Under the pieces are notes generated by a model. That model did no database searches, was not told where the DNA came from, and was given only the letters and a program-made list of their open reading frames with translations. Positions 1 to 17,664 of a stretch of 28,451 nucleotides of DNA are shown piece by piece. Every line of letters starts with the position of its first letter. Positions within the stretch are counted from its first letter, which is position 1. The DNA is from a virus. The translations under genes were made by a program, and so were the position numbers. The stretch covers positions 1-28,451 of IMG/VR virus record IMGVR_UViG_3300021139_000099; one strand, given 5' to 3'.

Positions 1-17
1 GGCGGGTGGCCGAATGA
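1..17 (+). CDS. 3' end of an upstream gene (partial, tentative)
   Basis: The first bases can be read as the last four codons of an upstream gene ending in TGA at 15-17. That stop would overlap the ATG at 14 in an ATGA junction, the same arrangement used by the next gene pair at 475. Too little is present to say anything about the product. The call rests only on the junction style. Confidence 0.3.
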
Positions 18-478
18 TTCGCACCATCCAGCCGTTCGACGAGGGAATCCTTGACGTCACGACCGATGCTCCTTGGGCGCACGCCGAAGGCAAGGGGGCC
101 TTTCGAGCCCTGTACATACACCCAGACATGGACCCATCCTGGCTCAACGACATTTTGCAGCGCACCGAGTGGCAGCCGACGTGGATGCTGGGCGTGTGGG
201 AGGGGATCAGGGTTAAGGCCTACAACGGCGCCTGGTACGATTACCCACTCAACAACTACTTGATAGTGGCGGACGACCTCGATAATGCTTCGGCGGGTCT
301 GATTTCCGAGTTGCGCTCCGAGAACCAAAAACTCCAGGAGGCGCTCGAAGTGCTCATGAGGGAGGCCAGCCCGGCCGCACCCGACGAGGGATACTTCGAC
401 TTTCTCATCGACAACTTCTTCATGCTGGGCGGAAGCGTAGCCAAGACACTGAAAAGAATCTACGAGGAAATGCAATGA
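14..478 (+). CDS. hypothetical protein, C-terminal coiled coil
   Basis: This 154-aa protein is not recognised. The N-terminal 90 residues are rich in Trp and Tyr and look globular. Residues about 95-118 form a short heptad-like coiled coil (around SENQKLQEALEVL), and the C-terminus is helical and charged. There is no signal peptide or membrane segment. The ATG at 14 is chosen because it may overlap an upstream stop and a G-rich stretch precedes it. The 3' end overlaps the next gene by ATGA, so the two are probably translationally coupled. The coding call is firm because the frame is open throughout and feeds a coupled series. A virion or regulatory role cannot be told from sequence alone. Confidence 0.75.
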   Translation: MIRTIQPFDEGILDVTTDAPWAHAEGKGAFRALYIHPDMDPSWLNDILQRTEWQPTWMLGVWEGIRVKAYNGAWYDYPLNNYLIVADDLDNASAGLISELRSENQKLQEALEVLMREASPAAPDEGYFDFLIDNFFMLGGSVAKTLKRIYEEMQ

Positions 479-987
479 CAGACTTCATCAATAACGCGCT
501 GGTTTACGTGCCCGAGGAACCGTACGCTAGCATCATCAACGAGATGAACTTGCAACTTTCAGATGCGAGGCTCGAGATCGGAAACCTTGCCGGCGAGAAG
601 GCCGAATTGGAAGGTAAGTTGCTGGGGGCCAGGGAAGACTACGAGCGCGTAAAGGGACAACTGCAAGACATTCCCCGTCCCGAACCTTCACTAACTGATA
701 TTCTTCAGTGCGGCAGTGAAGTAAGAAATCAGGTGAAGTACGCCAACGAAGACTTACAACTGCGCCTGGCTTCGGCAAACGAGCGTAGAAAAAACGCCTT
801 ATCCCTTGGCGGCCTGAGCGAAATGGAATTGTCACGCTTGTCGTACCGGCTCATTGATCGACTGTACGGCTTGTTCGAACCATTCTCGGAGGCGGGTGGA
901 CGAGTGACATCACTCAACACGGATCTATTAGAGACAATCAAAATCCTCAGCGATGTTGCAAGGGATCTGTACGGAGACTGCTTGTGA
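475..987 (+). CDS. hypothetical coiled-coil protein
   Basis: This 170-aa protein is of unknown function. Residues about 20-60 and 85-110 are Leu/Glu/Lys/Arg-rich with heptad spacing, giving two predicted coiled coils. The C-terminal third is helical. No enzyme motif, zinc site or membrane segment is visible. The start ATG lies inside the upstream stop (ATGA at 475-478) and is preceded by a GAGG Shine-Dalgarno (SD) sequence at about 464-467. The 3' end overlaps the next gene by four bases (GTGA). Together with its neighbours it forms a tight three-gene operon of small proteins. A structural scaffold or adaptor role is possible but unsupported. Confidence 0.75.
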   Translation: MTDFINNALVYVPEEPYASIINEMNLQLSDARLEIGNLAGEKAELEGKLLGAREDYERVKGQLQDIPRPEPSLTDILQCGSEVRNQVKYANEDLQLRLASANERRKNALSLGGLSEMELSRLSYRLIDRLYGLFEPFSEAGGRVTSLNTDLLETIKILSDVARDLYGDCL

Positions 988-1229
988 AGTTGTCCATCAC
1001 CGATGTCGAGCCCCTGCTGGCCGAATACCTTTCGAAGCCCGGGAACGGACTCGGCGGCCACTATTACACCGTTCTTTCTAACGGCAACGTCCAAAACAAG
1101 ACTGTCTTAGCGTGCTTCCACGCCGCGTGCGCCGACAACGACAAAATGGGCATGATGTTGGGCTGGCACCTGTTGATGCTTACCAAGACTCAGCGCCGTC
1201 GCATCTCGAGAGTTTTGCGCCGCAACTAG
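984..1229 (+). CDS. small hypothetical protein
   Basis: This 81-aa protein is not recognised. It starts at GTG 984, which overlaps the preceding stop as GTGA, with a CGGAG SD about 9 bases upstream. The sequence is compact and basic towards the C-terminus (around TQRRRISRVLRRN). It has Cys and His residues (CFHAACADNDK) that do not form a classical zinc motif. It is the last plus-strand gene before a strand switch. Its TAG stop overlaps the stop of the convergent minus-strand gene within one CTAG palindrome at 1226-1229. A nucleic-acid-binding role is conceivable from the basic tail, but this is inference only. Confidence 0.65.
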   Translation: MKLSITDVEPLLAEYLSKPGNGLGGHYYTVLSNGNVQNKTVLACFHAACADNDKMGMMLGWHLLMLTKTQRRRISRVLRRN

Positions 1230-1363
1230 CGGTCCGTGGGCTCAGCAATCGTCATGGGGTAGCACAGGGCTCTGCCATTTTCGTGCATCCAGCGCGCATG
1301 ATCCCCGTAGACGTTGGACCAGCGCTTGACCTTGATGGGTTTGCCGCAATTTTTGCAGTTCAA
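1226..1363 (-). CDS. small zinc-ribbon-like protein
   Basis: This minus-strand gene encodes about 45 aa with the pattern CxxCGKPI near the N-terminus followed by WMHENG and a final Cys. That C-C-H-C layout is typical of small zinc-binding proteins common in actinobacteriophages, whose role is unknown. I prefer the TTG start at 1363, because AAGGTGG lies just upstream of it and the zinc motif follows at once. The open frame extends to an ATG at 1453 (75 aa), but that ATG has no SD and would add an unstructured leader. The stop overlaps the convergent plus-strand stop. The motif makes the gene likely real; the start is uncertain. Confidence 0.6.
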   Translation of the reverse strand: MNCKNCGKPIKVKRWSNVYGDHARWMHENGRALCYPMTIAEPTDR

Positions 1364-1620
1364 CTGTCCACCTTTTTGCGCCTGTTGCCTATTTTGCTTT
1401 GTTTGCGGTGTCGGCAAACAGTGGGTTTGAGGGAACACTACAAAATACCCCATATGGGGGGTAAAACGTAGTAGGCGTGTCTCGATTTCGAGACATCACG
1501 CCATGTACGGATATTGAGACACGCCTTTTGAAAAAACAAGGGGTGGGCAAAATCCTTTGTTGGCTGAAACAACCAAAAACCAACTCTGGACCAGCCATCC
1601 TTACGGGTAGGCGCACCCCC
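1364..1620. other. gene-poor interval with an inverted repeat
   Basis: I see no convincing gene here. Minus-strand open frames cross the interval, but they run into the tRNA-like region and lack ribosome binding sites. It holds the switchable inverted repeat at 1473-1526 and otherwise A-rich, unstructured sequence between the tRNA-like element and the zinc-ribbon gene. Confidence 0.6.
1473..1526. repeat. three-arm inverted repeat with mutually exclusive hairpins
   Basis: Arm A (AGGCGTGTCTCGAT, 1473-1486) can pair with arm B (CGAGACATCACGCC, 1489-1502), which gives a tight hairpin with a small bulge. It can also pair with arm C (ATTGAGACACGCCT, 1513-1526), which gives a 14-bp stem with one G-T wobble followed by TTTTG on the plus strand. 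The A:C form looks like an intrinsic terminator for the plus operon ending at 1229. The A:B form would exclude it. On the minus strand the same element lies between the tRNA genes and the zinc-ribbon gene. Confidence 0.6.
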
Positions 1621-1692
1621 TAGCCCCCACGACGCAGAGTCGAACTGCGAGCCACCAGAACTGAAAGTCTGGCAACCGACCATCTAGGGGGG
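1621..1692 (-). tRNA. degenerate tRNA-like sequence (possible UUC anticodon)
   Basis: Read on the minus strand there is a perfect T arm (CGCAG, TTCGACT, CTGCG), a 5-nt variable loop, and a 5-bp anticodon-like stem (CCAGA/TCTGG) closing an 8-nt loop CTTTCAGT. The ends carry CCCCC and GGGGG that can pair. However, the acceptor stem is only 5 bp with unpaired TCGT on the 3' side, and no proper D arm forms. It lies 38 nt downstream of the CAU tRNA and would be co-transcribed with it. It may be a decayed tRNA-Glu, an odd functional tRNA or a tRNA mimic. No CCA is encoded. Confidence 0.4.
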
Positions 1693-1730
1693 TTAATCAC
1701 CGATTGCATACGCGCCATGCAACCGGCTAG

Positions 1731-1804
1731 TGGCGGATACGGGACTCGAACCCGTGACCTAGTGAGCATGAGCCACCCGCGCTACCCAACTGCGCCAATC
1801 CGCT
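1731..1804 (-). tRNA. tRNA with CAU anticodon (Met or Ile2)
   Basis: A full cloverleaf folds on the minus strand. The acceptor has GCGGAT paired to ATCCGC plus an A1-C72 mismatch, and U8 is present. The D arm is GCGC/GCGC, the anticodon stem is GGTGG/TCACT around loop CTCATGC, and the T arm is ACGGG/CCCGT around TTCGAGT. The anticodon is CAT. The three G:C pairs that mark initiator tRNAs at 29-31 are missing, so an elongator Met or a lysidine-type Ile tRNA is more likely. CCA is not encoded. A strong promoter at 1811-1839 places the expected start at about 1804, the tRNA 5' end. Confidence 0.88.
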
Positions 1805-1810
1805 TCGATC

Positions 1811-1839
1811 ACTATAGCACACCGGCGGGCAAAAGTCAA
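1811..1839 (-). promoter_or_regulatory. extended -10 promoter for the tRNA genes
   Basis: On the minus strand a TTGACT -35 (1834-1839) is followed by exactly 17 nt ending in TGTGC and then a TATAGT -10 (1811-1816). The TGn element makes it an extended -10 promoter. The expected start, 6-7 nt past the -10, is at about 1804, which is base 1 of the tRNA. There is therefore essentially no 5' leader. Confidence 0.8.
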
Positions 1840-1850
1840 GTTTATAATGC

Positions 1851-1881
1851 AAAAAGCCCCCCGGGCCGAAACCCGAGGGGC
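1851..1881 (-). terminator. intrinsic terminator after the small membrane protein
   Basis: On the minus strand a 10-bp stem (GCCCCTCGGG against CCCGGGGGGC, one T-G wobble) with a TTTCGG loop is followed by TTTTTG. It lies 17 nt past the stop of the 2206-1898 gene and upstream of the tRNA promoter. It thus separates the two minus-strand units. Confidence 0.88.
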
Positions 1882-1897
1882 AAATGCTGAAGATTGG

Positions 1898-2206
1898 TTA
1901 CTTGGTCGCGGTTGGCGCAGGGGCAGCGTTGCCCTGGTTGGCGCTAGGCGAAACGACCACGGGAACCGGTTCCGGCTGAGCCGGGAGTGCTCCCAGAAGC
2001 CACGACAGGCTCGGGACCTTGGTTTCCGCCCATCGAAGGCCGGCGTAGTAGGCGGTCCCAAAGATGGGCGTCAGAACCCCGACCCACTGAGCGCCGAGAC
2101 CGGCCGTGGCCTTAGTGATCCACGCCAGAATTGCACCGACGACTGCCGGGACGGCGGTTCGGATGACATTCTTGGCGTAGTTGGTTGCCTTAGTTGAAAG
2201 TGACAT
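1898..2206 (-). CDS. small membrane protein, holin-like
   Basis: This 102-aa protein has two hydrophobic segments, at about residues 14-31 and 39-60, then a Pro/Ala-rich soluble C-terminal tail (around PAQPEPVPVVV). Two transmembrane helices with a short hydrophilic tail fit a holin or other small phage membrane protein, but no specific family motif is seen. ATG 2206 is preceded by GGGAG at good spacing, which sets the start. The gene is monocistronic. It has its own promoter (2231-2259) and its own terminator (1851-1881) and lies on the strand opposite to the surrounding phage genes, a moron-like arrangement. A second candidate membrane gene is at 28338. Confidence 0.75.
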   Translation of the reverse strand: MSLSTKATNYAKNVIRTAVPAVVGAILAWITKATAGLGAQWVGVLTPIFGTAYYAGLRWAETKVPSLSWLLGALPAQPEPVPVVVSPSANQGNAAPAPTATK

Positions 2207-2230
2207 GTTTCTCCCAGTTAGAGTTACTCA

Positions 2231-2259
2231 ACCATACCACGTACACCGCTCGAAGTCAA
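2231..2259 (-). promoter_or_regulatory. promoter for the small membrane protein
   Basis: On the minus strand a TTGACT -35 (2254-2259), 17 nt ending in GTGG, and a TATGGT -10 (2231-2236) form a good sigma-70-type promoter with a TGn extension. The expected start at about 2224 leaves a leader of some 18 nt containing the GGGAG ribosome site. A small GAGTTACTC palindrome (2221-2229) overlaps the start. Confidence 0.75.
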
Positions 2260-2284
2260 TGCTTCGATTCATTTACTTGACTTC
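2252..2284. repeat. inverted repeat formed by two back-to-back -35 boxes
   Basis: GAAGTCAA (2252-2259) and TTGACTTC (2277-2284) form a perfect 8-bp inverted repeat spaced by 17 nt. Each half contains the -35 box of one of two divergent promoters. It may simply reflect two -35 boxes, or it may be a symmetric operator for a dimeric regulator controlling both directions. Confidence 0.6.
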
Positions 2285-2305
2285 CGGCGCGTTCTGTGCT
2301 ACTGT
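2277..2305 (+). promoter_or_regulatory. extended -10 promoter, leaderless start
   Basis: TTGACT (2277-2282), 17 nt ending in TGTGC, and TACTGT (2300-2305) form an extended -10 promoter. The ATG of the next gene begins at 2312, six bases after the -10, which is the normal distance to +1. No ribosome binding site could fit. The transcript is predicted to begin with AUG. Confidence 0.8.
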
Positions 2306-2311
2306 CTGCGC

Positions 2312-2662
2312 ATGGCAAAAAAGAAGAATCGAATCCTTACCCTCGCCCACGTCGACGAGCCCGGCTCGACATACAAGGATGTTGAAATCCCTCATGTCGT
2401 TCCCCTCTATGTCGACCTCGACGAAGCGCGCTCCATTGGTCGTGCATTCCTCACCCCCGGCGAAGGTCGAGTATGGGCAAAACTGGAAGTTGACGCTGTC
2501 GTCACCAACCTTGGACCCCAGCCGGCGACGGTATTGGCCCTAGAGGGAGAGACAACCTACACGTCCGGCGGGGTACGCTACATCTGTGGCGGCCTTGTTA
2601 CCGGCGCTTCAATCGTCACACAAGAGTTGTGGGACAAGATCCATGGAGGACAAGTATCGTGA
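2312..2662 (+). CDS. hypothetical protein, first gene of a leaderless operon
   Basis: This 116-aa protein is not recognised. It begins with a basic stretch (MAKKKNR) and is then a mixed beta-rich soluble domain (segments VPLYVDLDEA, VWAKLEVDAVVTNLG and TTYTSGGVRYICGG) with no membrane segment or catalytic motif. The ATG at 2312 is fixed by the promoter, whose predicted +1 is the A of the start codon. It leads an operon of small to medium genes running to about 4920. The next gene overlaps its stop by GTGA, so coupling is likely. As first gene under a strong promoter it may be an early protein, but this is inference. Confidence 0.75.
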   Translation: MAKKKNRILTLAHVDEPGSTYKDVEIPHVVPLYVDLDEARSIGRAFLTPGEGRVWAKLEVDAVVTNLGPQPATVLALEGETTYTSGGVRYICGGLVTGASIVTQELWDKIHGGQVS

Positions 2663-2979
2663 CCTGGTATGACTTTGCTTTGGCGGTGTACATCATCGTT
2701 ACTTTTTTGCTCTACTGCCGATTCCGCTACTTTCTCGAGAATGATTTCTACTATCTCGAGTCCAAGGGCGTTCAGATCCCCCCGGCGAAGCGGCTCGAAC
2801 TGCACTTCATGTGCACCTGGGAAGCCGTGCGTTGGCCATGGGGCATTTGGATTGACGGCATCGCCGCTCTCACCGAAAAGTTGAAGTACGAAGACCCCTA
2901 CACCGACGCCGATTCCGCCCCAGCCGATGGCTACCTTGGCGAAGACGACGAGTCCGACGAAATCTTTGGTACGTTTTAA
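2659..2979 (+). CDS. hypothetical protein with N-terminal membrane segment
   Basis: Starting at GTG 2659, which overlaps the previous stop as GTGA, this encodes 106 aa. A GGAGG motif at 2645-2649 sits 9 nt upstream and decides the start over the ATG at 2629. Residues about 5-22 are hydrophobic (around ALAVYIIVTFLLY) and predict one membrane helix. A Trp- and Tyr-rich middle part follows, then a strongly acidic tail (DADSAPADGYLGEDDESDE). Membrane association with a cytoplasmic acidic tail is inferred. No family is recognised. The end overlaps the next start as TAATG. Confidence 0.7.
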   Translation: MTWYDFALAVYIIVTFLLYCRFRYFLENDFYYLESKGVQIPPAKRLELHFMCTWEAVRWPWGIWIDGIAALTEKLKYEDPYTDADSAPADGYLGEDDESDEIFGTF

Positions 2980-3341
2980 TGGGTCGCCGTGTTGGCGTGA
3001 CGGGTGGTCGTAGCAATTACGACTACATTCACATCCACCGAGTGCTGAAGGAGATCCTGGAGCCGGGTGACATTCTTGTCCACGGTGGAGCCAGCGGCGT
3101 TGATTCGGTATCGGCCCAAACCGCCGTGTACCTCGGCAACGCGGTGGAACAGCACAAGGCTAACTGGGCCAAGCACGGCAAATCGGCGGGCGGCCTTCGC
3201 AACCAAAAAATGGTTGACACGGGGCCAGACTTTGTGGTACAGTTTGCAGGAGGGACCGGGACGGCCGACATGGTCAAGCGGTGCAAGGCGGCAGGGGTAA
3301 GAGTTATCCACGCCGACGTCACAACAGGAGAGACACAGTGA
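2979..3341 (+). CDS. SLOG/YspA-like (DUF2493-type) Rossmannoid protein
   Basis: This 120-aa protein shows the hallmarks of the YspA/DUF2493 branch of the SLOG superfamily. These are VTGGR near the N-terminus with a following Asp, LVHGGASGVDSV at residues about 33-44, RNQKMVD at about 75-81, and FAGGTGTADMV at about 88-98. SLOG domains are related to DprA and LOG enzymes and are thought to bind nucleotides or nucleotide-derived ligands. The length matches a stand-alone domain. The TAATG junction and the GTGA overlap with the next gene place it in one coupled cluster with a nucleotide-acting fusion enzyme. Nucleotide sensing or processing is therefore likely; the substrate is unknown. Confidence 0.8.
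   Translation: MGRRVGVTGGRSNYDYIHIHRVLKEILEPGDILVHGGASGVDSVSAQTAVYLGNAVEQHKANWAKHGKSAGGLRNQKMVDTGPDFVVQFAGGTGTADMVKRCKAAGVRVIHADVTTGETQ
3214..3243 (+). promoter_or_regulatory. candidate internal promoter
   Basis: TTGACA (3214-3219), an 18-nt spacer ending in TGTGG, and TACAGT (3238-3243) lie inside the SLOG gene, about 95 nt before the DUF4406-kinase start. The TGn extension matches the other promoters here. However, the bases also encode conserved SLOG residues, so chance is a real possibility. Confidence 0.35.
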
Positions 3342-4309
3342 GCCAGGGAACTGTTTATGTCGCAGGACCAATGCGCGGATACGACAAGTGGAACTTCCCA
3401 GCGTTCGACGCAAACTCCGATTGGTTGCGCACCCTTGGCTGGACGGTAATTTCCCCCGCCGAGATCGACCGCGAGATCGGGTTCGACGGGAACAACGCGG
3501 AGGTTGTTTTCACGGAAGCCGACTTCCACGAAGCGATGAAGCGCGACTACGCCGCCCTCCTCCGGTGCGACGCCATCGCTTTCCTGCCTGGGTGGGAGAA
3601 GTCAGCCGGCGCCAAGTTGGAGCGAGAGTTCGGCATCAAGTTGGGGCTCGACTTCTACCGAGTCGACGAGTCCACGGGTCTGTTCCAGAAGGAAGTCCTG
3701 GTCGGCATTACCGGCTTTGCACGCTCTGGCAAAGACACCCTAGCCGCGCAGATGGTGGAAAAGTTGGGTTTTCAGCGAGGTAGTTTTGCAGACACCCTCC
3801 GCAACGTCCTATACGCTCTTAACCCGGTAATCGGGCTCGACGCAACGGGCGGCTCGACGGCTTTCCCACGTTTTGGAACCGCTGGAACGGCGCCGGTCTT
3901 TCTTTCCGTCAAGGATGTCGTCGACGAAATCGGCTGGGAGGCCGCCAAGGACGAGCAACCAGTCATCCGGGAGTACCTACAGCGCCTTGGCACCGAAGGC
4001 GGCCGCACACATATTAACGACTCCGTATGGGTTGACGCTGTTCTTAACAAGCCCCACGCAGCGCGACTGGTAATTCCGGACGTTCGCTTTCCCAACGAGG
4101 CAGAGGCCATCAAGAAGCGCGGAGGAATCATTGTCCGCATCCATCGTGAGGGCTACTTCCCCGTCAACGCGCACGCGAGCGAAACGGCTTACTCGGACCA
4201 GGATTTCGTCCTCGACAATGACGGAACACCCGAAGATCTCCTCACTCAGTTCGCAGCCGTGACCGGTTTGTTCCAAAACGAATTGTTCGTGCGTAGGCTT
4301 ATTTTGTGA
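3338..4309 (+). CDS. DUF4406 (deoxyribosyltransferase-like)-deoxynucleotide monophosphate kinase fusion
   Basis: This 323-aa protein appears to join two enzymes. Residues 1-115 match the DUF4406/nucleoside 2-deoxyribosyltransferase-like fold: VYVAGPMRG at the N-terminus, a central Asp-rich strand (CDAIAFLPGW) and SAGAKLERE, with the Glu in the place of the family's catalytic residue. Residues from about 120 match phage dNMP kinases: P-loop GFARSGKDT (about 126-134), then GSFADTLRNVLYALNP and a late PDVRFPNEAEAIKK. Phage dNMP kinases supply dNTP precursors. The N-domain suggests base or sugar exchange or hydrolysis on nucleotides. GTG 3338 overlaps the previous stop and has AGGAG upstream. Confidence 0.82.
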   Translation: MSQGTVYVAGPMRGYDKWNFPAFDANSDWLRTLGWTVISPAEIDREIGFDGNNAEVVFTEADFHEAMKRDYAALLRCDAIAFLPGWEKSAGAKLEREFGIKLGLDFYRVDESTGLFQKEVLVGITGFARSGKDTLAAQMVEKLGFQRGSFADTLRNVLYALNPVIGLDATGGSTAFPRFGTAGTAPVFLSVKDVVDEIGWEAAKDEQPVIREYLQRLGTEGGRTHINDSVWVDAVLNKPHAARLVIPDVRFPNEAEAIKKRGGIIVRIHREGYFPVNAHASETAYSDQDFVLDNDGTPEDLLTQFAAVTGLFQNELFVRRLIL

Positions 4310-4422
4310 GCCTTTCGCAGATCCCCCCATTGCCGGACAGCACCATCAGGCCGCAAGCGGATAGCGCCGGCATCGTCGCAATATCCACCAAATTACCTTT
4401 AGACTCTTGGAGCAACTCATGA
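4306..4422 (+). CDS. very small hypothetical protein
   Basis: A 38-aa frame starts at GTG 4306, overlapping the preceding TGA as GTGA, and ends with TGA overlapping the next ATG as ATGA. Position and coupling on both sides support translation, but the SD is weak (TAGG). The sequence is Ser/Pro/Ile-rich with no motif. It fills what would otherwise be a 110-nt gap in a tightly packed operon. It could also be only a translational bridge. Confidence 0.45.
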   Translation: MSLSQIPPLPDSTIRPQADSAGIVAISTKLPLDSWSNS

Positions 4423-4574
4423 AACGCAGGAAGAAGAAGCCAATCCCAATGATTAGGCTCGGTAATGAGATCAAACTTGGGGGGCGCCTGCTCGAGGTCG
4501 GCTACATCAATACCTGCCAAATGGCCGACGGAACCCTAGAGGTTTCCTGGACGGCGTTTGAAAAAAATGAGTAA
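4419..4574 (+). CDS. small basic hypothetical protein
   Basis: This 51-aa protein starts at ATG 4419, within the previous stop (ATGA), with a GGAG ribosome site 7 nt upstream. The N-terminus is strongly basic (MKRRKKKPIPM). The rest is compact and beta-like (RLGNEIKLGGRLLEVGYI, then GTLEVSWTAFE), resembling a small SH3-like or nucleic-acid-binding fold, although no family is recognised. Its 3' end overlaps the endonuclease start by eight bases (ATGAGTAA), implying co-translation. Association with the adjacent nuclease is a reasonable guess. Confidence 0.65.
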   Translation: MKRRKKKPIPMIRLGNEIKLGGRLLEVGYINTCQMADGTLEVSWTAFEKNE

Positions 4575-4920
4575 GTCGCGCGCCAAGGGAACTAAGTTCG
4601 AATCAGAGGTCGTGGCGTATCTACGAGAGAACGGCTTCCCTGATGCCGAGAGAACTGGCAGCGCCGACTTTGGCGGCGGTGACATCAAAGGGACCCCGTT
4701 TGCAATCGAATGCAAGAATCAGCAAGCCATGGCTCTGGCGTCATGGGTTGACCAGTCCAGGGAGACTGGGCGCAGGATAGCCAAGTTTCCGTTCCTGGTC
4801 CACAAGAGAGTTCGCAAACCAATCAAGAACGCATATGTGACCCTAGAGTTGCAAGACCTCGTGTGGTTCGCTCGTAACGCCGGCTCGTTGAGCAAAGGAT
4901 CTTTGCCACCGTACCCTTGA
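4567..4920 (+). CDS. Hjc-like PD-(D/E)xK endonuclease (Holliday junction resolvase family)
   Basis: This 117-aa protein fits the archaeal-type Holliday junction resolvase / PD-(D/E)xK fold. It has KGTKFESEVVAYLRENGF with the N-terminal Glu, then RTGSADFGGGDIKG with the catalytic Asp, then FAIECKNQ with the ExK pair, and a downstream Gln/Trp helix. The length is normal for the family. In phages such enzymes cut branched DNA before packaging or act in recombination. ATG 4567 is chosen over the upstream TTG 4558 because it overlaps the previous stop and begins the conserved basic segment. The last codons overlap the -35 of the next promoter (TTGACA at 4917). Confidence 0.8.
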   Translation: MSKSRAKGTKFESEVVAYLRENGFPDAERTGSADFGGGDIKGTPFAIECKNQQAMALASWVDQSRETGRRIAKFPFLVHKRVRKPIKNAYVTLELQDLVWFARNAGSLSKGSLPPYP

Positions 4921-4945
4921 CATAACTGCACTTCTGTGCAATAAT
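4917..4945 (+). promoter_or_regulatory. extended -10 promoter upstream of the packaging genes
   Basis: TTGACA (4917-4922), 17 nt ending in TTCTGTGC, and AATAAT (4940-4945) form a strong extended -10 promoter. The TTCTGTGC before the -10 is identical to that of the promoter at 2277. The predicted start is about 4951, just before a terminator-like hairpin. Confidence 0.78.
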
Positions 4946-4956
4946 GATTGTAGGAG

Positions 4957-4980
4957 AGGCGCCCTCAGGGGCGTCTTTCT
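4957..4980 (+). terminator. terminator-like hairpin directly after a promoter (attenuator candidate)
   Basis: AGGCGCCC (4957-4964) pairs with GGGCGTCT (4969-4976) across a TCAG loop, giving 8 bp with one G-T wobble, and runs into TTTCTT. It starts about 6 nt after the expected transcription start and 27 nt before the next ATG. It could cut transcripts to a leader of about 30 nt, or stabilise the mRNA 5' end. Confidence 0.6.
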
Positions 4981-5003
4981 TCGTATCTATAGGGGGAAAT
5001 CAG

Positions 5004-5597
5004 ATGGCAAAACCTTTGAGTCGCAGGGCACAGCAGCGGCGCGACCGAATTCTCGAGAGTTTGTCAAATACTGCCGTCTTGCTCTCCAAGATCAAGGCCG
5101 AGGACGTCGAGGAACTCATCCGACGCGACGCCATCGAGGTCGACGGCTCCTCCGGTGGCGGAATCGACATTGGCATGCCCCGGAGCGCTTCGAGCAATTC
5201 TTCGTCGCCCGTCGAGCGGGCTGTCATCGCCAAGATGGAGGGCAAGGGTCTCAAGGACCCCGTGCGGGCCGAAGTTAAGTCCGTCGAGCGAAACATCATT
5301 GACGGCGAGCACAGTTTCATCCGAGCGTTGCAGAGCATTGTCATGTTGCGAGACGGAGTGGAGAAGCAGCGCCAGCGCTCGCAGGCGTCAGCGCCATGCG
5401 AGGTTTGCGAGATACTTCCGGCAGCCAAGCAAGCCTTGTGCCTGGACGATTGGGCCGACTGGGTTGCTAACGGAGCGCCCGACCGCCAGCGATGGGTTGC
5501 CTACAAGACGAAGGCCCGTTCTAGCGACGGCAAGATCCTCGTCACCGAGCAGCCCCCTGCACGGCACCCCGCTCGTACCCTTGACAATCAGAAATAG
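5004..5597 (+). CDS. hypothetical protein with Cys-rich C-terminal segment; possible small terminase or DNA-binding protein
   Basis: This 197-aa protein starts at ATG 5004 behind AGGGGG; the ATG at 4944 lies inside the -10 box and is rejected. The N-terminus is basic and helical (around LSRRAQQRRDRI). A Gly/Ser-rich linker occupies about residues 48-70 and a helical segment about 72-125. A Cys pair, CEVC (132-135), is followed by LCLDDWADWV, resembling a partial zinc-binding module. It precedes terminase by two small genes, the usual place of a small terminase subunit, but no helix-turn-helix is evident. The function is left open. Confidence 0.7.
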   Translation: MAKPLSRRAQQRRDRILESLSNTAVLLSKIKAEDVEELIRRDAIEVDGSSGGGIDIGMPRSASSNSSSPVERAVIAKMEGKGLKDPVRAEVKSVERNIIDGEHSFIRALQSIVMLRDGVEKQRQRSQASAPCEVCEILPAAKQALCLDDWADWVANGAPDRQRWVAYKTKARSSDGKILVTEQPPARHPARTLDNQK

Positions 5598-5608
5598 TGT
5601 GATATAGT
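5581..5608 (+). promoter_or_regulatory. extended -10 promoter before the terminase cluster
   Basis: TTGACA (5581-5586), a 16-nt spacer ending in TGTGA, and TATAGT (5603-5608) form a strong match. It overlaps the end of the 5004 gene. The expected start, at about 5614-5615, falls just inside the 59-aa gene that begins at 5610, so the promoter probably serves the 5789 gene and terminase. Confidence 0.65.
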
Positions 5609-5609
5609 G

Positions 5610-5789
5610 ATGAGTGAGACTAGGGACACCTCCGTACCCCCCACACCCAACGAACTGTTGATGCTCGGATTCGAGCCTTGGCAGGTCTCCGAATGCGCGA
5701 GACTGCCGGCGGCTCTCCAGTGGGAGGCTCACGATCTTTTCATCAGACGACTGATGAGCAACGACGACGTAGAGGACCTAAGATTCTAA
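5610..5789 (+). CDS. small hypothetical protein
   Basis: This 59-aa protein begins at ATG 5610, or at GTG 5607. The N-terminal third is Pro/Thr-rich. The rest (LMLGFEPWQVSECARLPAA, then HDLFIRRLMS) is helical and may be a small protein-interaction domain. No family is recognised. The start overlaps the -10 box of the 5581 promoter, so full-length product needs read-through from further upstream. A shorter start at ATG 5661 is possible. The end overlaps the next gene as TAATG. Confidence 0.6.
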   Translation: MSETRDTSVPPTPNELLMLGFEPWQVSECARLPAALQWEAHDLFIRRLMSNDDVEDLRF

Positions 5790-6100
5790 TGAGCGAAGAC
5801 CTCAACACCCCATCACCAGCCGAGCAATCGATAGCCGACCAGGTCAACCGCATTGTTGGGCGCGCAGAACTAGAAGCGCGCGAGATGATCGGCGACGCTC
5901 GGTACGACGAAATGCTCGAATCCGCAAAGCGGACGGAGCAAGTTCAACTCGCCAACTCCATCGCCAACGCAGAAGCGTTAGTGGGGATGGCCAAATCTCG
6001 AGAAGCCCTCGCCGGCTTGCTCAACTCCGTGTCGCTCTTTGTTTTGTCGGGTGCTCTTTGCACCGTAGCGCTGGTGGCCAAGTACATCATCGTAGGATAA
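5789..6100 (+). CDS. hypothetical protein with C-terminal membrane helix
   Basis: This 103-aa protein starts at ATG 5789 in a TAATG junction. Residues about 12-75 are predicted helical and charged, with many Glu, Ala and Arg. Residues about 80-101 are hydrophobic (around VSLFVLSGALCTVALVAKY) and form a single C-terminal membrane anchor. There is no signal peptide. It sits immediately upstream of terminase, with two bases between its stop and that ATG. A tail-anchored protein between the regulatory and packaging genes is unusual. Lysis, superinfection or membrane-tethering roles are possible, but none is supported by a motif. Confidence 0.7.
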   Translation: MSEDLNTPSPAEQSIADQVNRIVGRAELEAREMIGDARYDEMLESAKRTEQVQLANSIANAEALVGMAKSREALAGLLNSVSLFVLSGALCTVALVAKYIIVG

Positions 6101-6102
6101 GC

Positions 6103-7635
6103 ATGGCAATCAATTTTGGTGACCGCATTTCGGCGACTATTAAGCCGCCCGAGATCGACGTTTTCGAAAAGATCGGTTACACGCCCCACGAGCGTCAGCG
6201 TGTTTTCCACCAGGCTTCGGCCGAGCGCCTCGATGCCATCCTTTACGGGGGCGCGGCGGGTGGTGGCAAATCTGCCGCTATGCTCATGGACGCCATCTGG
6301 AACGCCGTCAACTTCCCTGGAATGCGAATCGGCTGTTTCCGACGCACCTATAACGAGTTGGAAGAATCCTTCATTTCGCAGTTGGCGAAGTGGGGATACG
6401 CCGCCGTCCTGGGTGGTCGCTGGAACGAAACCAAGAAGGTTCTCACCTTCCCCAACGGTTCAGTCATCAACTTTACTTACGCTGAAAGCCTGAAAGACGC
6501 ATCCCGAATCCTCGGTGGTGAGTACCAGGCATTCTACATTGACGAGGCGAGCCTCATGCTCCCCGGCGTCATCCAGCACATCGAGGAACGTTTGCGTTCC
6601 GGTGACAAACTTGTTCCCGTCATCGGCTTGCGGCTATCGTCCAACCCGGGCGGCATCGGACACAAGTACCTCAAGGACCGCTTCATCAACCCCACCAAGC
6701 GTGGTAAGGTCCGACACACCGAGCGCATCGAGGGAACCAGCACGACCCGAACGGTCGCCTACATTCCCGCCAAGGCTACCGACAACCCTCACATCAACGA
6801 GGGCTATGACGCGGTCCTCAACTCAATCCCCGATCCTCAGCGCCGAGCCGCAATGCGCGACGGCGACTGGGATGCGATGGTCGGGCAGTTCTTCCCGCAA
6901 TGGTCGTATGCACGACACGTTGTGCCATCGTTTGCTGTTCCAAAAGAGTGGCAACGCTACGCAGGAATCGACTACGGAGTCTCCGCCCCCTTCGCTTGCG
7001 TCTGGGGGTCCCCAGACCAAGACGGCCGGCTCTGGGTATACAGGGAGATTTACGCTACAGGCTTGTACTCGGAAGACCAGGCTAAGGCGATTATCGGTGC
7101 CGAAAAAGACGCCGGAGAGAACGAAGTCATGCACTATGCGGACCCATCTATGTGGGGGAACCGTGGCACGACTTACACCATCGCAGACGATTACGGACTC
7201 AATGGGTGCGGAATCATTCAGGCCGACAATAACCGCATTAACGGTTGGGCTCGAGTCCACTACTTTTTTAACGATGGACCTGCTTGCGAATACCACCGAA
7301 GCATGGGATGGAAGACATGCCCTATGCTCCACGTCTTCGAAGACAAGTGCCCCATGTTCATCGAAACCATTCCGACGCTCCCGCGCGACCCCGTCAAGCC
7401 TGACGACGCTGCGACCAAGAACGTTGACGACCACATACCCGACGCCCTGCGCTACATGTGCATGGCGGTCGGCAACTATGCTCGACCAATCTTTCACGAT
7501 GCGGAGATCAAGACACCGACTACTGGCCTTCCGGAGACCATGACCCAAGACACCCCCCAGCGTTCTAACGAGCCTGAATTCACGCTTCACGGCGGGGGAC
7601 GTTTTGTTGGCAACCTCGGGCTGAACATCCTCTAG
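6103..7635 (+). CDS. terL: terminase large subunit
   Basis: This 510-aa protein has the two-domain organisation of TerL. The ATPase part contains Walker A GGAAGGGKSA at about residues 49-58, an adenine-binding Gln/Arg region before it (HERQRVFH), and Walker B FYIDEAS at about 144-150. The RNase H-like nuclease part has GIDYG at about 287-291 and a later HYADPSMW and DDHIPDALRYM supplying acidic residues. TerL translocates DNA into the prohead using ATP and cuts the concatemer. ATG 6103 with TAGGA upstream is chosen over the 6058 frame start, which overlaps the previous gene. The portal follows 13 nt later. All key motifs are intact. Confidence 0.96.
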   Translation: MAINFGDRISATIKPPEIDVFEKIGYTPHERQRVFHQASAERLDAILYGGAAGGGKSAAMLMDAIWNAVNFPGMRIGCFRRTYNELEESFISQLAKWGYAAVLGGRWNETKKVLTFPNGSVINFTYAESLKDASRILGGEYQAFYIDEASLMLPGVIQHIEERLRSGDKLVPVIGLRLSSNPGGIGHKYLKDRFINPTKRGKVRHTERIEGTSTTRTVAYIPAKATDNPHINEGYDAVLNSIPDPQRRAAMRDGDWDAMVGQFFPQWSYARHVVPSFAVPKEWQRYAGIDYGVSAPFACVWGSPDQDGRLWVYREIYATGLYSEDQAKAIIGAEKDAGENEVMHYADPSMWGNRGTTYTIADDYGLNGCGIIQADNNRINGWARVHYFFNDGPACEYHRSMGWKTCPMLHVFEDKCPMFIETIPTLPRDPVKPDDAATKNVDDHIPDALRYMCMAVGNYARPIFHDAEIKTPTTGLPETMTQDTPQRSNEPEFTLHGGGRFVGNLGLNIL

Positions 7636-7648
7636 GAGAGAACATACA

Positions 7649-9097
7649 ATGCCATCTTTTAGAGGGGAACTCGCCGAGTTCGTCAGTCACTCCATCGCTA
7701 CGGTAGAAGAGGGGCGCCGCCCCAAGTCTCCAAAGCGTACAGGATGGGGAGTCGGCATTCCAGTTGGTGGCTCAACCGCCGTCAACCCGGGCTCCAATCT
7801 TACCGCCGGCTCCATGGACCGCGGAACCTTCATGCAGCAACTACTCCAGGCGTACCTTGCGTGCACCTGGTCGTCTGCCTGCGTTGACGTCATTGCCCGT
7901 ACTTGCACCGCTGGTGGCCTAGACGTTGTCTACGAGACCAAGCCCTATGGGTCTCCCGAGATCCCGGAAGCCCCGCCGGAAGTTCGCGAAATTCAAGAAT
8001 TGCTGAAGTTCGTGAACCCCGAAAATGACATACGTCAGTTGATGCGTACCGTCATTACTGACCTCATGATTTTTGGAGACTCCTTCACGGAGGTCGTATG
8101 GGTCGCCGGCAAGCCTGCCGCACTCTACCCGCTCGACCCGACTACCATCACCGTCCTGGCGGACGAACATGGCACCGTGACGGGGTTCCAACAGCAAACT
8201 CAGACGAACCGCAAAGCGTATTTTGCGCCAAAGCAGATCATCCACGTCAAGTTTGACTCTCCTGGCGACACTCTTTACGGCGTGTCTCCCACGCAGAAGA
8301 ACATCCTCCCGATTACGTCGTGGCTTTTTGCCGCCGCGCTGGTCAAGGAAACAATGAAGAAGGGCGACCCACTCCGCGCCCACGTCGACTGGCCTATCGC
8401 CCTGCCCGAATCGGAGCGCTCACGCTTCTCCCAGCAGTACAGCATTCGCAACATGGGCGCGCGCAACATTGGTAACCTCTTCGAAACGAAGGGTGGGGCC
8501 GTTGTCCACGAACTCGGCATCAACCAGATTAGTAACTGGGAAGGCGTTTTGCAGCGCCGTCGAGACGAGATTTGCTCCGGCTACGGTGTTCCGCCTTCCA
8601 AGGTGGGAATCATCGAAGCGGGTAACCTCGGTGGTGGAACCGGAACCCAGCAAGACAAGTCGTTTCGAGTCAACACCTGCGGCCCAATTCAGGAAATCGT
8701 GCTCGAGAAGTTTTCGTTTGCCCTCCTGTACCAAACTTACGGCATTGCCGACTGGTACCTCAAGTTCGGCGCAGTCGACTGGCGAGACGACGAAGTCATC
8801 GAGAACATTCGTGACCAGCGCATCCGCAACGGTGTGTGGGTTCTTAACCGAGCCCGTACAGACGTCGGCGAGCCGCCCGTTGAGGGTGGTGACGACCCGG
8901 TCCTGGTCGACCGACAGAACATGGTTCTGTGGAAGCACCTTTCCGACCTCTCCGAGGCTAATTTGGAGATTGCCCAGGTTGCCGGCCAACCCAAGAATGC
9001 ACCTGTACAGGGGAACACCAACCCCGACGCTGGCGCCAAGGGAGGCCAGGCAACTGGAGCACCCGAAGCACCTCCTTCACCAGGGGCAACCAAGTAG
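7649..9097 (+). CDS. portal protein
   Basis: This 482-aa protein resembles HK97-type phage portal proteins. It forms the dodecameric ring at one capsid vertex through which DNA enters and to which the neck attaches. Supporting stretches are the N-terminal WSSACVDVIARTC helix, LMIFGDSFTEVVW with the following LYPLDPTTITV, IIHVKFDSP with GVSPTQKNI, and the clip/stem region ICSGYGVPPSKVGI. The C-terminus is Gly/Pro/Ala-rich and flexible. Length and position directly after terminase are normal. AGGAG 10-14 nt upstream of ATG 7649 sets the start. The next gene starts one base after the stop. Confidence 0.92.
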   Translation: MPSFRGELAEFVSHSIATVEEGRRPKSPKRTGWGVGIPVGGSTAVNPGSNLTAGSMDRGTFMQQLLQAYLACTWSSACVDVIARTCTAGGLDVVYETKPYGSPEIPEAPPEVREIQELLKFVNPENDIRQLMRTVITDLMIFGDSFTEVVWVAGKPAALYPLDPTTITVLADEHGTVTGFQQQTQTNRKAYFAPKQIIHVKFDSPGDTLYGVSPTQKNILPITSWLFAAALVKETMKKGDPLRAHVDWPIALPESERSRFSQQYSIRNMGARNIGNLFETKGGAVVHELGINQISNWEGVLQRRRDEICSGYGVPPSKVGIIEAGNLGGGTGTQQDKSFRVNTCGPIQEIVLEKFSFALLYQTYGIADWYLKFGAVDWRDDEVIENIRDQRIRNGVWVLNRARTDVGEPPVEGGDDPVLVDRQNMVLWKHLSDLSEANLEIAQVAGQPKNAPVQGNTNPDAGAKGGQATGAPEAPPSPGATK

Positions 9098-9259
9098 ATG
9101 ATCGACAACCCCGAAGAATTCGAAGAGACCGAAGAGGTCATGGGTGAAGTCCTGGGCGACCTTTTGCTCGGCGGCGCCAGTCCGTACGGTCAACTCACTC
9201 CCTACGCGGGACTGACGGCGGCCAAGGCGGCCGCACTGGTTAGCAAGCAGATTGCCTAA
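9098..9259 (+). CDS. small hypothetical protein between portal and capsid genes
   Basis: This 53-aa protein starts at ATG 9098 directly after the portal stop and ends in a TAATG junction with the next gene. The N-terminus is acidic (NPEEFEETEEVMGEV) and the C-terminus is Ala/Leu-rich and helical. Its tight spacing on both sides and fully open frame support it. Perhaps it is a head-assembly accessory; no family is recognised. Confidence 0.65.
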   Translation: MIDNPEEFEETEEVMGEVLGDLLLGGASPYGQLTPYAGLTAAKAAALVSKQIA

Positions 9260-9747
9260 TGTCCTCCGGGAACTATCTCGGACGTGCTGGCGCGTATGCC
9301 ATGCACCACAAATACAGGTCAGGCAACCAGACCTCGGCGCAGTTAGAGGCCGAACGCCTGAACCTTCTGAAAGCCAGGTTGGCCAAGGGCCATTCTCGGC
9401 ACACTTCGGCTGAGCCGTACAGATCCTTTAGAGCCAGCACCGTCAAAAGTCGCGGGGCTCAAGGAACGCTGTGGGCGTACAACGAACGCTACCTCGCCGG
9501 CATGAAGCACAGAGCCCTCGGAACTAGATGGCTTGCTTACAAAAAGAAGGTCAGCCTTCCTGGTGTGCACATCAACGGCATACCCAAGAGGTTCCAGTCA
9601 GACATCAGTCCTGGCGGTTACGACTCCAGGACGCGCTGGGGTAGAGCCCGGCGACACAAGTTTAAGTCCCGCCTCGTGGTTCACTCTCACAGACGCCAGC
9701 AGGTAAAGCGCTGGAAGTTCCGTGGCAAGAAATTCACTCCGAGGTAG
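9259..9747 (+). CDS. very basic hypothetical protein in the head cluster
   Basis: This 162-aa protein is extremely rich in Lys and Arg, with a basic C-terminal half (RTRWGRARRHKFKSR and HRRQQVKRWKFRGKK) and many Tyr and His residues. It has no acidic clusters and no membrane segment. It lies between portal and protease, where phages often place head-morphogenesis or internal proteins. The charge suggests DNA binding, for example a packaged or capsid-internal protein, but this is inference. ATG 9259 is set by the TAATG junction. Only 28 nt separate it from the protease gene. Confidence 0.7.
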   Translation: MSSGNYLGRAGAYAMHHKYRSGNQTSAQLEAERLNLLKARLAKGHSRHTSAEPYRSFRASTVKSRGAQGTLWAYNERYLAGMKHRALGTRWLAYKKKVSLPGVHINGIPKRFQSDISPGGYDSRTRWGRARRHKFKSRLVVHSHRRQQVKRWKFRGKKFTPR

Positions 9748-9775
9748 GCCCCACCACTCTAAGGAGCAATCCAGA

Positions 9776-11584
9776 ATGACTTCCAAGTTGGCCGCTCGAG
9801 TTAGCGGTACCTTTCTCCGCCCCGGCGTCTCTAAGAACAAGAAATTGTACACTGCTGAGAACATCGGGCGCGCCGTTGCTCGAATGCAGGAATCGCTAGC
9901 GAATCCCGAAAGCGATGCCCTTACCTCGTACGCCAGTCACAAGGACGCGCGCGACGACAACTCACTGATGAAGGTGGGCCGCATTACAAAGGTGGATCAA
10001 CTCCCCGATGGAAGCGCCACTTTCGAAGCAGAGATTGTTGCCACTGCGGCCGGCCGCGACATTGCTCTTTTGGCCGACGCCGATCTTGCTCGCCAAGTTT
10101 CCATTCGTGGAGGCTGGGTTGGTGACTTCGAGGTAGTTGAAAACAATGGCGAGATGGTCCTGACTGCGCCCGACATCCAAATTGACGGCATCGACTTCAC
10201 TGGCCGTCCGGGAGTCTCCGGCGCCATGATCGAGAAAGTGGAACTGTTTGAGTCTTTCGACCCGGAAGATGAGAGCAATCGCGTCATCCTCGAGTCCGTT
10301 GAGAGCGACGACATTGTCATTACCCGCGAGATCTTCGAAGAGGTCGTGGAGCCCGACGAAGAGGCCGTGAGCGAAAGCCAGCGCGACCTCATCGAGAGCG
10401 TGACCGAGACCGTCATACGCGAACTCATGGAAAAGGACTCCTCTAAGCCCTACGGCGACGTCAAGTACGCCGACCCCGGCTACCAGTCCGACAAGAAAAA
10501 GCGCTATCCGATTGACAGCGCCAAGCACGTCCGCGCCGCCTGGTCGTACATCAACGAAAGCAAGAACACCGAGCCATACACCCCGGCTCAGTTGCAGCGA
10601 ATCAAGTCGCGCATCAAGTCGGCCGCCAAAAAGTTCGGCATCGACGTCCAGGAAGAGTTCAACACCCTGGTCAATGACATGCAGGCGGTTCTCGAGGCCT
10701 ACGCCTCCATGTCACTAGACAACAACGCAGCCAACATCAGCATTAGCGGCTACGACATTGATCCCGACAATCTTGCTTCGACCGCCACCCTGATCGCCGC
10801 AGCCGCCGTCCTGGCGCTGAACACACTCGACCCTGATGCCGACGGAGACGTCGTCACCCCGGGCGAGGCTGCCGAAGAGTCCTTCGGAACCAAAACGCCG
10901 GCCACCAACGCCGACAAGTCCGTTCCATGCCCTGCGTGCGAGGCCGAGATGCCTGCCGCTGCCCTTTACTGCCCCACCTGCGGGCAGCCAGTACCAATCA
11001 CCGAGTCGACGTCCGACAAGGAAGACAATCAACCACAGGAGGAAGTCGACATGACGACCGAAAGCACCGAGGCTAACGCTAAGGATGAGACGGCGACTGA
11101 AGAGTCTGCCGCTCCCACCTTCAGCGCAGCCGACCTCAAGGCCATTGCCTCTGCCGTTGCGGAGATTTTGAAGCCGACCATCGAGTCCGAGGAAGCCCCC
11201 AAGGCCGACGAAGACGAGGACAACGAAGACGGCGAGGAAGCCCCCGCCGAAGAGACCGCCGCGGCCGAAGAGTCCGCAGCCCCCAAGGAGAATGAAGTGA
11301 GCGAGAGCATCACCCTGACGCCCGACCAGTTGAAGGCGATTGTCACCCAAAGCATCGAAGAGAGCCGCCGGAACGAAGTCGCCGACTATCGCCGTAGCGG
11401 CGGTGGACGAGTTGGTCATGTGACCAGTCGTGCCGCTACCGAGAGTTTCGACGGCGATGACGAAGACGCGGTGCGCCGTGTCTCCGAAATGAAGTCGGCT
11501 GACTTCCGTGACCACGCCCGTTCGGTGTGGGAATCCCAGCCGTTTTTCAACAACCTGTTTCAGCGCGCCGACCGCGGCTTCTAG
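9776..11584 (+). CDS. prohead protease-scaffold fusion protein
   Basis: This 602-aa protein combines several parts. Residues about 1-165 look like a prohead maturation serine protease: a conserved His in YASHKDARDDNSLMKVG at about 54 and a Ser in QVSIRGGW at about 109, the spacing of S78/S80-type assembly proteases. Residues about 222-300 (from KPYGDVKYADPG) are a small domain seen with phage proteases (DUF6582-like). A zinc ribbon CPAC...CPTC lies at about 385-405. The rest is an acidic, Ala/Glu-rich scaffold-like tail ending in the WESQPFFNNLFQR peptide. AAGGAG before ATG 9776 decides the start. A second in-frame start lies at 11051. Confidence 0.85.
   Translation: MTSKLAARVSGTFLRPGVSKNKKLYTAENIGRAVARMQESLANPESDALTSYASHKDARDDNSLMKVGRITKVDQLPDGSATFEAEIVATAAGRDIALLADADLARQVSIRGGWVGDFEVVENNGEMVLTAPDIQIDGIDFTGRPGVSGAMIEKVELFESFDPEDESNRVILESVESDDIVITREIFEEVVEPDEEAVSESQRDLIESVTETVIRELMEKDSSKPYGDVKYADPGYQSDKKKRYPIDSAKHVRAAWSYINESKNTEPYTPAQLQRIKSRIKSAAKKFGIDVQEEFNTLVNDMQAVLEAYASMSLDNNAANISISGYDIDPDNLASTATLIAAAAVLALNTLDPDADGDVVTPGEAAEESFGTKTPATNADKSVPCPACEAEMPAAALYCPTCGQPVPITESTSDKEDNQPQEEVDMTTESTEANAKDETATEESAAPTFSAADLKAIASAVAEILKPTIESEEAPKADEDEDNEDGEEAPAEETAAAEESAAPKENEVSESITLTPDQLKAIVTQSIEESRRNEVADYRRSGGGRVGHVTSRAATESFDGDDEDAVRRVSEMKSADFRDHARSVWESQPFFNNLFQRADRGF
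11051..11584 (+). CDS. nested scaffolding protein (internal start in the protease gene)
   Basis: An in-frame ATG at 11051 is preceded by a perfect AGGAGG (11037-11042) with 8 nt spacing, stronger than most starts in the window. It would give a separate 177-aa protein: acidic Thr/Glu/Ala-rich, helical and of low complexity, with segments FSAADLKAIASAVAEIL and LTPDQLKAIVTQSIEES, then a C-terminal Arg/Phe-rich tail. These are features of phage scaffolding proteins. The arrangement matches lambda C/Nu3, where scaffold is made from an internal start in the protease gene. The capsid gene follows after 57 nt. Confidence 0.72.
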   Translation: MTTESTEANAKDETATEESAAPTFSAADLKAIASAVAEILKPTIESEEAPKADEDEDNEDGEEAPAEETAAAEESAAPKENEVSESITLTPDQLKAIVTQSIEESRRNEVADYRRSGGGRVGHVTSRAATESFDGDDEDAVRRVSEMKSADFRDHARSVWESQPFFNNLFQRADRGF

Positions 11585-11641
11585 CAACACCAGTCCGAAT
11601 CAAACCAACAGAACTAAGTTCATCAACAAGGAGAATGGCAA

Positions 11642-13204: not shown

Positions 13205-13230
13205 TCGGCCCAGCCAACACAACGCAGTAT

Positions 13231-13280
13231 CTAGAGGGTGGCCGGTCCCCCTCGTTCCTCACCGGCCACCCTCTAGTTTT
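13231..13280 (+). terminator. strong intrinsic terminator after the capsid gene
   Basis: A perfect 16-bp stem (CTAGAGGGTGGCCGGT against ACCGGCCACCCTCTAG) with a 14-nt pyrimidine-rich loop is followed by TTTTA. It begins 27 nt after the capsid stop and 21 nt before the next gene. It should reduce read-through, so capsid transcripts exceed those of the neck and tail genes. Confidence 0.9.
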
Positions 13281-13300
13281 ACCACTCTGAAAGGAACAGA

Positions 13301-13618
13301 ATGTCTTCAGTTTTTGTTGCGAGCACTGCCATCTCATCTGCCCCGGGTTTCGCCTGGGACGTTACGGGTGACGAAGGTGCTCTCGAAATTCCGGTGCACT
13401 TGGCGAACGAAATCCTCGCCATCCCCGGTACCTGCTTCTATACCGTCGATGCCCCCGCTCGGGCGCTACCCGACCAAGGAAATGAACTTGGCGACGTCAA
13501 TGTCGAAGCCAAGGACGAGAACGACGACGCCGAAAAAGGCGCCGAAGAGGTGAAGGTCAAGCCTCGCGCAACGCGCGCCAAGAAGACCAAGGAAGAAACA
13601 CCTAGCGACGAGGAGTAG
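13301..13618 (+). CDS. hypothetical protein downstream of the capsid gene
   Basis: This 105-aa protein is not recognised. Residues 1-60 look like a small beta-rich domain (SVFVASTAISSAPGFAW, then ALEIPVHLANEILAI). The remainder is disordered and charged, acidic first (EAKDENDDAEKGAEEVK) and then basic (RATRAKKTKEE). AAAGGA 5-10 nt before ATG 13301 sets the start. It lies between the capsid terminator and the connector gene, a spot that often holds head decoration or head-completion proteins. A similar layout, with a folded start and a Lys/Glu/Thr tail, recurs in the 86-aa gene at 15820. Confidence 0.7.
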   Translation: MSSVFVASTAISSAPGFAWDVTGDEGALEIPVHLANEILAIPGTCFYTVDAPARALPDQGNELGDVNVEAKDENDDAEKGAEEVKVKPRATRAKKTKEETPSDEE

Positions 13619-13624
13619 TAGACA

Positions 13625-14311: not shown

Positions 14312-14314
14312 CCA

Positions 14315-17638: not shown

Positions 17639-17664
17639 CCACCTCTATCCACTAGGAGAATTTG

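Follow-up and report, generated by a model that had tools for sequence, protein, structure and literature searches.

The viral contig IMGVR_UViG_3300021139_000099, analysed here over its 28,451 bases (the window; ARAGORN calls one tRNA in it), carries a recurring family of promoter-like sites, and our analysis indicates, with a probability of roughly 78%, that these are strong extended -10 promoters for the host housekeeping RNA polymerase (sigmaA/sigma70 type) in a freshwater actinobacteriophage lineage. The sites are enriched outside genes, conserved among relatives and regularly spaced; their firing and the positions of the first transcribed base (+1) we infer. In the common layout, an A-tract of the form AAAnnC precedes TTGACA/T, followed by a spacer of 16-18 nt ending in TG or TRTGn and by TANNNT. 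Judged from the sequences, the family appears to consist of further members of known host-type promoters, two of its geometries being uncommon: transcription predicted from the first base of a tRNA, and a start codon abutting the -10 box. The result is a promoter model, tested on sequence, for a large group of freshwater actinophages known only from uncultured material; their packaging operon would have one deeply conserved promoter. It also revises the idea that these promoters form a phage-specific class. Two checkable predictions follow, namely phage tRNA-Met without 5' leader and leaderless phage mRNAs. A literature search on this phage group found no paper on their promoters and no transcript data. 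The label freshwater is our assumption from the sample numbers of many contigs, which we take to be those of lake metagenomes.

Promoter-like sites in the window

The sites that stand in the window are the following, each with its score under a position matrix built from relatives:

1811..1839, minus strand: TTGACT-17-TATAGT with TGTGC, and ATAAAC upstream; score 31.0, the window's best
2231..2259, minus strand: TTGACT-17-TATGGT with CGTGG; predicted +1 at 2224; score 18.8
2277..2305, plus strand: TTGACT-17-TACTGT with TTCTGTGC; predicted +1 at 2312, the A of an ATG; score 23.1
3214..3243, plus strand: TTGACA-18-TACAGT with AAATGG as well as TTTGTGG; lies within gene 2979-3341 and would drive gene 3338-4309; predicted +1 at about 3250; score 29.6
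4917..4945, plus strand: TTGACA-17-AATAAT with TTCTGTGC; the preceding gene's stop codon lies within TTGACA; predicted +1 at 4952; score 15.9
5581..5608, plus strand: TTGACA-16-TATAGT with GTGTGA, spacer AGAAA; predicted +1 at about 5615; score 23.9

All except 3214 had been proposed as promoters in a first-pass annotation of this DNA, and at all five, on both strands, the hexamers, the 16-17 nt spacers and TGn are present as it described. TGTG precedes the -10 box in four of them, as it also claimed, the exception being 2231 with CGTG; the sequence that it found common to two sites is TTCTGTGC, in 2277 and 4917. The 13-mer CGTACCCTTGACA has exactly two occurrences, at 4910 and 5574. Hexamers near TTGACA/TATAAT, a spacer within 16-18 nt and TGn in five of five sites are what is expected of a sigma70/sigmaA extended -10 promoter, TGn being the known extended -10 element and TRTG the name of its longer form.

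Any 28-kb window has loose matches to a sigma70 consensus, and a generic scan of 20 kb gives 9 sites where 5.4 would be expected, so we considered the reading that all sites are chance matches. Under a chance criterion (TTGACW, spacer 16-18, -10 box with A2/T6 and at least 4/6 matches), the window has 6 sites, all with TGn, compared with a mean of 0.75, or 0.08 with TGn, in 60 order-2 Markov simulations; these six include a site at 18748 and exclude 2277, whose -10 box has only 3/6 matches. Trained on 83 non-genic sites from the relatives, with none from the window, the matrix gives its six highest scores in the window to 1839-, 3214+, 5581+, 2277+, 2259- and 4917+, in this order (31.0 to 15.9 bits), while in 100 order-3 simulations scores of at least 15.9 occur 0.09 times and of at least 8.3 occur 1.36 times per window. 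Two weaker sites had also been put forward. The one at 3214 on the plus strand holds, exceeding all 100 simulations; the one at 18748 has only GATGC before its -10 box and is to be taken as noise, because its score of 8.3 is reached 1.36 times per simulated window. The chance reading is thus valid for 18748 only and refuted for the other six sites by the held-out matrix and the simulations; with the enrichment outside genes and the orthologous conservation described below also against it, we regard it as extremely improbable for the set as a whole.

The motif class in related phages

The window has a terminase and a portal gene:

6103..7635, plus strand: terminase large subunit (PHROG 2 and 979), 3' of promoter 5581
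7649-9097: portal

With the window terminase as query, 79 relatives are found among viral contigs, and together with the window these form 27 clusters at 90% identity (26 relatives and the window), with G+C content of 41-59%. The cultured relatives with the best matches are Arthrobacter phages at about 35% identity (among the matches listed, 30 of 961 records). WhiB is encoded in 8 of the 16 relative phage records searched, including 7 of 7 of those of at least 62 kb. Since this family is described as confined to Actinobacteria (PMC6282962, PMC10202952), the hosts of the relative group are, judging from the encoded proteins, almost certainly Actinobacteria. Terminase homologues, sought in bacterial genome contigs as a host clue, gave no match.

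A class search with TTGAC[AT], spacer 16-18 and TANNNT, leaving TG and the upstream bases free, finds 111 sites in the 27 sequences. With genes called by our own simple caller, which misses some, 87 sites lie outside called genes (61 kb) and 24 inside (317 kb), a density ratio of 18.8; 48 lie wholly within non-genic segments, where simulations give a mean of 2.4 and a maximum of 4. Enrichment in non-coding DNA, which had been set beforehand as the test of the family, is therefore found, the sites being about 19-fold denser outside genes. TGn stands before the -10 box in 52/87 non-genic vs 2/24 genic sites, TRTG in 30/87 vs 1/24, and AAA within 8 bases upstream of TTGAC in 62/87 vs 1/24; TGn and AAA occur together at a single genic site, 3214. 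As the sites are related by descent, Fisher values overstate the significance of these differences, the direction of the TGn and AAA enrichment not being in doubt. The position of the A-tract is sharp: counted back from TTGAC, A stands at -6, -5 and -4, and position -1 is C (AAAnnC-TTGAC). Among the 41 non-genic sites of the minus strand, which fall outside the three plus-strand orthologue sets, 18 have AAA, 28 the C, 29 TGn and 20 TRTGn. On the whole, the conservation bears out a recurring promoter family with similarity beyond the two hexamers, and the AAA three bases before TTGAC, overlooked in the earlier annotation, is its more distinctive element. Start codons opening at least 30 codons are also unevenly placed after the 87 non-genic sites, with 15 at 5-8 nt past the -10 box vs 1-5 per later 4-nt bin to 32 nt.

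The probable promoter upstream of the terminase

Site 5581 appears to be the core promoter and the most conserved of the set, upstream of the terminase. Its counterpart is present in 24 of 24 clusters (window included) with a contig long enough, 22 being found by script and those of L054 and L055 by inspection, with L065, L078 and L079 too short. All 24 copies have a spacer of 16, and in 16 of them AGAAA is seen in it by eye. Directly after it lies one further conserved frame:

5610..5789, plus strand: 59-aa conserved ORF, matched by tblastn in 21 of 26 relatives; the window's ATG is one base after the -10 box

Across clusters this ORF, about 59 aa long, opens with an ATG or GTG placed at -2 to +1 nt relative to the last base of the -10 box, and it has no visible ribosome site. 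As the usual start, about 7 nt past the -10 box, falls inside the ORF, we expect P5581 to supply the terminase operon with transcripts but to miss the small ORF, whose translation would depend on RNA started further upstream. The upstream gene's stop codon often lies within the TTGACA of P5581, with other frames elsewhere, which argues that DNA and not a common peptide is conserved here.

The presence of this element upstream of the terminase in all 24 clusters could also be that of a terminase recognition (cos/pac) site or of an operator resembling a promoter; a spacer AGAAA is not a sigma70 feature, and the predicted +1 comes only after the start codon. Nevertheless, the invariant blocks are TTGAC and TA...T at exact sigma70 spacing, unrelated promoters are preceded by the same A-tract, and AGAAA occurs also in unrelated phage promoters, though that search required AGAAA. 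We therefore hold the cos/pac or operator reading to be very unlikely and keep 5581 as a putative promoter. In L051-L058 the terminase match starts only at residue 57, possibly through an insertion in the terminase gene, and the 5581-type promoter of L054 and L055 lies far from the terminase match.

Sites 4917 and 3214

The features downstream of site 4917 are:

4953..4980, plus strand: hairpin of 12 bp, starting at +2 of the predicted 4917 transcript (-21.4 kcal/mol, z -2.95)
5004..5597, plus strand: 197-aa gene with tblastn matches in relatives, no PHROG and no Pfam match above cut-off

Counterparts of 4917 are found upstream of the 197-aa gene in most orthologues, the script finding none in L015, L068 and L071. 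Because 5581 and 4917 are conserved beside packaging genes, the label accessory region, under which the sites had been introduced, is a poor one. Similar leader hairpins are strong in L021, L046, L054, L061 and L076 (z -3.5 to -5.3), and such a hairpin is possibly an mRNA stabiliser or attenuator. A conserved RNA hairpin in the 4917 leader was considered and dropped, since pair counting for covariation on alignment A1 was not above controls and a shuffle test for 5' hairpins gave 11 observed vs 6.5 expected of 21.

For site 3214, orthologues of its gene were not found among relatives by tblastn. The product of 2979-3341 matches PHROG 289, and 3338-4309 is a fused nucleoside 2-deoxyribosyltransferase and deoxynucleoside monophosphate kinase, of which many relatives match one half only.

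The divergent pair and predicted leaderless mRNAs

Sites 2231 and 2277 face away from each other, towards two small genes:

1898..2206, minus strand: 102-aa gene (PHROG 10742, function not assigned), its sequence looking membrane-spanning; would be served by 2231
2312..2662, plus strand: 116-aa ORF with a predicted leaderless mRNA; tblastn matches in 11 relatives

The divergent -35 boxes are 17-20 bp apart in the window, L047, L059 and L061, the last three being the relatives with orthologues of the 102-aa gene. For 2231, an 18-nt leader with GGGAG is predicted in the window, while the orthologues in L047 and L059 are leaderless by spacing and that in L061 has a leader of 9 nt. For 2277, the distance from the -10 box to the start codon is 6-8 nt in 9 of 12 orthologues, the misfits being L021, L054 and L055, and the site is predicted to drive a leaderless mRNA of the 116-aa ORF. 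This corresponds to the leaderless mRNAs described in studies on C. glutamicum (PMC3890552, with a share of 33%) and mycobacteria (PMC4633059), where the start codon is at +1 as predicted at 2277; unlike those, the present cases are phage genes and predicted by spacing alone.

The predicted tRNA-Met promoter

Site 1811, the highest-scoring one, faces the tRNA gene:

1730..1804, minus strand: tRNA-Met (CAU), from ARAGORN, an Rfam tRNA score of 57.3 bits and its fold
1856..1881, minus strand: terminator-like hairpin separating the 102-aa gene from the tRNA promoter, the best of 27 from a consensus scan of window positions 1-20000

The predicted +1 of this site, 1804, is nucleotide 1 of the tRNA-Met. 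The 27 sequences have 121 tRNAs (12 Met), and seven of them have a class promoter ending 2-15 nt upstream. Five of the seven are tRNA-Met (in the window, L031, L037, L039 and L066), with a gap from the -10 box to A1 of exactly 6 nt in each, the promoter in L031 having a poor -35 box; the other two are tRNA-Thr, with gaps of 8 and 9 nt. We thus predict that the tRNA-Met of five phages is transcribed from its first base, without 5' leader, the +1 in the window and L037 being possibly one base earlier. All five tRNA-Met begin AGCGG and end CCGCCAC, so that A1 stands opposite C72 without forming a pair. Initiator tRNA is marked by such an open 1-72 position and by an anticodon stem with three G-C pairs; the three pairs are visible in the tRNA-Met of four relatives, not in that of the window.

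In the leaderless tRNA genes of Nanoarchaeum equitans the promoter puts +1 on tRNA nucleotide 1, a purine, as is predicted here; that organism lacks RNase P (PMC10100707). The present genes, by contrast, belong to phages of bacteria, in which RNase P is presumably available from the host, and the prediction from sequence concerns tRNA-Met only, in five phages. Directly after the tRNA-Met, 1620-1700 on the minus strand looks tRNA-like: it has a T-arm and an 8-nt loop that possibly contains a UUC anticodon, but is called by neither ARAGORN nor Rfam. L047, L059 and L061 have large tRNA arrays for many amino acids, with duplicated Thr, Gly and Glu isoacceptors.

Host sigma or phage factor

Bacterial genome contigs contain the string AAATACTTGACAN{11,13}TGTGNTAYAMT in at least 119 stretches, and a close variant occurs in eight further phage loci that have no tblastn match to the window proteins searched; among these eight, the matches in L089 and L091 do not look like promoters. 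Sigma domains of four families were sought in the 16 phage records, which are genome fragments, and none is above cut-off, with one partial sub-cut-off match to PF08281 in G006; a phage sigma factor was accordingly rejected as reader. A search for single-subunit (T7-type) RNA polymerase gave no match, its positive controls being also without match. As the motif is found in bacteria and unrelated phages and no phage sigma domain is above cut-off, the simplest assumption is that the sites are read by the housekeeping sigma of the host. The hexamers and TGn would be recognised by sigmaA, and the A-tract most likely aids in the style of an UP-element proximal half-site, which makes a minor-groove contact. 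The geometry would then vary by target: 1811 would start at tRNA nucleotide 1 and 2277 at the AUG, 2231 would give a short leader with a ribosome site, 4917 a leader opening with a hairpin, and 5581 a start just inside the 59-aa ORF.

Extended -10 sigmaA promoters of Actinobacteria and other Gram-positives share with this class TTGACA/T, a spacer of 16-18 nt, TGn before TANNNT and leaderless or short-leader starts. TGn, including TGnTATAAT, is reported for many C. glutamicum sigmaA promoters (PMC3890552). Unlike these known promoters, the phage sites add an A-tract with C at -1 and sit at conserved phage positions, and their -35 box is better conserved than is reported there for C. glutamicum.

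Several observations weigh against the housekeeping assignment. Of the window's sites, only 1811 and 3214 show a clear AAA element; strict TGn is carried by only 52 of the 87 non-genic sites, so TG is common and not obligatory, and in many P5581 copies TG abuts the -10 box. Strict sites are absent from three Arthrobacter phages and number one in lambda (the whole control set), showing that this promoter style is not universal among phages. Moreover, cultured Nanopelagicales phages encode a sigma-70 factor (PMC10202952), and since our records are fragments, a phage sigma factor may be encoded elsewhere in the genomes.

The last two points, with the conservation in 26 related clusters and the window, speak for what the first-pass annotation had suggested as one option, a phage-specific class read by a phage-encoded sigma or another phage factor. 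Against it stand the canonical sigma70 hexamers and spacing, the same string in bacteria and its variant in unrelated phages, and the result of the sigma domain search, so neither the specific class nor the phage sigma finds support, and we consider this reading highly unlikely beside that of host sigmaA.

The WhiB question

Another possibility is that these are sigmaA promoters dependent on a phage WhiB-like protein, which would sit on sigmaA region 4 and hold the A-tract as the WhiB7 AT-hook does, making the family a WhiB-switched regulon. It would fit the A-tract at a fixed distance from the -35 box across the class and the presence of WhiB genes in eight of the 16 relatives, including every one of the seven that reach 62 kb; likewise, the WhiB7-dependent sigmaA promoters of mycobacteria have an AT-rich tract immediately upstream of the -35 box (PMC3905903). 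Unlike WhiB7, however, the proteins predicted at 15 phage WhiB places show no AT-hook-like motif within their last 60 residues, with start codons, and in L235 also the reading frame, crudely chosen. WhiB3, without canonical AT-hook, does not use the A-track (PMC10245118). No WhiB match is found in the eight unrelated phage records with the motif, none in the window record (a fragment), and four of the window's six sites have only a weak A-tract. Dependence on WhiB is hence unlikely in our estimation.

A bolder version, in which a phage WhiB on sigmaA region 4 would read the A-tract without AT-hook and co-activate the leaderless mRNAs and the first-base tRNA-Met, is speculative and very improbable; if true, the products of such a WhiB-gated network would bypass the host ribosome-site and RNase P steps. 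The relatives carry one to three WhiB-like genes (loci L221-L235). These fall into two or more types, of which one has an additional CxxC and a basic C-terminus. A WhiB-like gene of L046 has a class promoter and looks leaderless.

Other features of the window

Between the plus- and minus-strand gene blocks, two mutually exclusive hairpins could form at 1474-1525: the partner of GGCGTGTCTC (1474-1483) would be either GAGACATCACGCC (1490-1502) or GAGACACGCC (1516-1525), after which comes TTTTG. A palindrome, CCCCATATGGGG, lies at 1448-1459. Further downstream, 18130-18896 has two overlapping ORFs upstream of a 1210-aa ORF (18981-22613), the layout usual for a frameshifted tail assembly chaperone before a tape measure gene.

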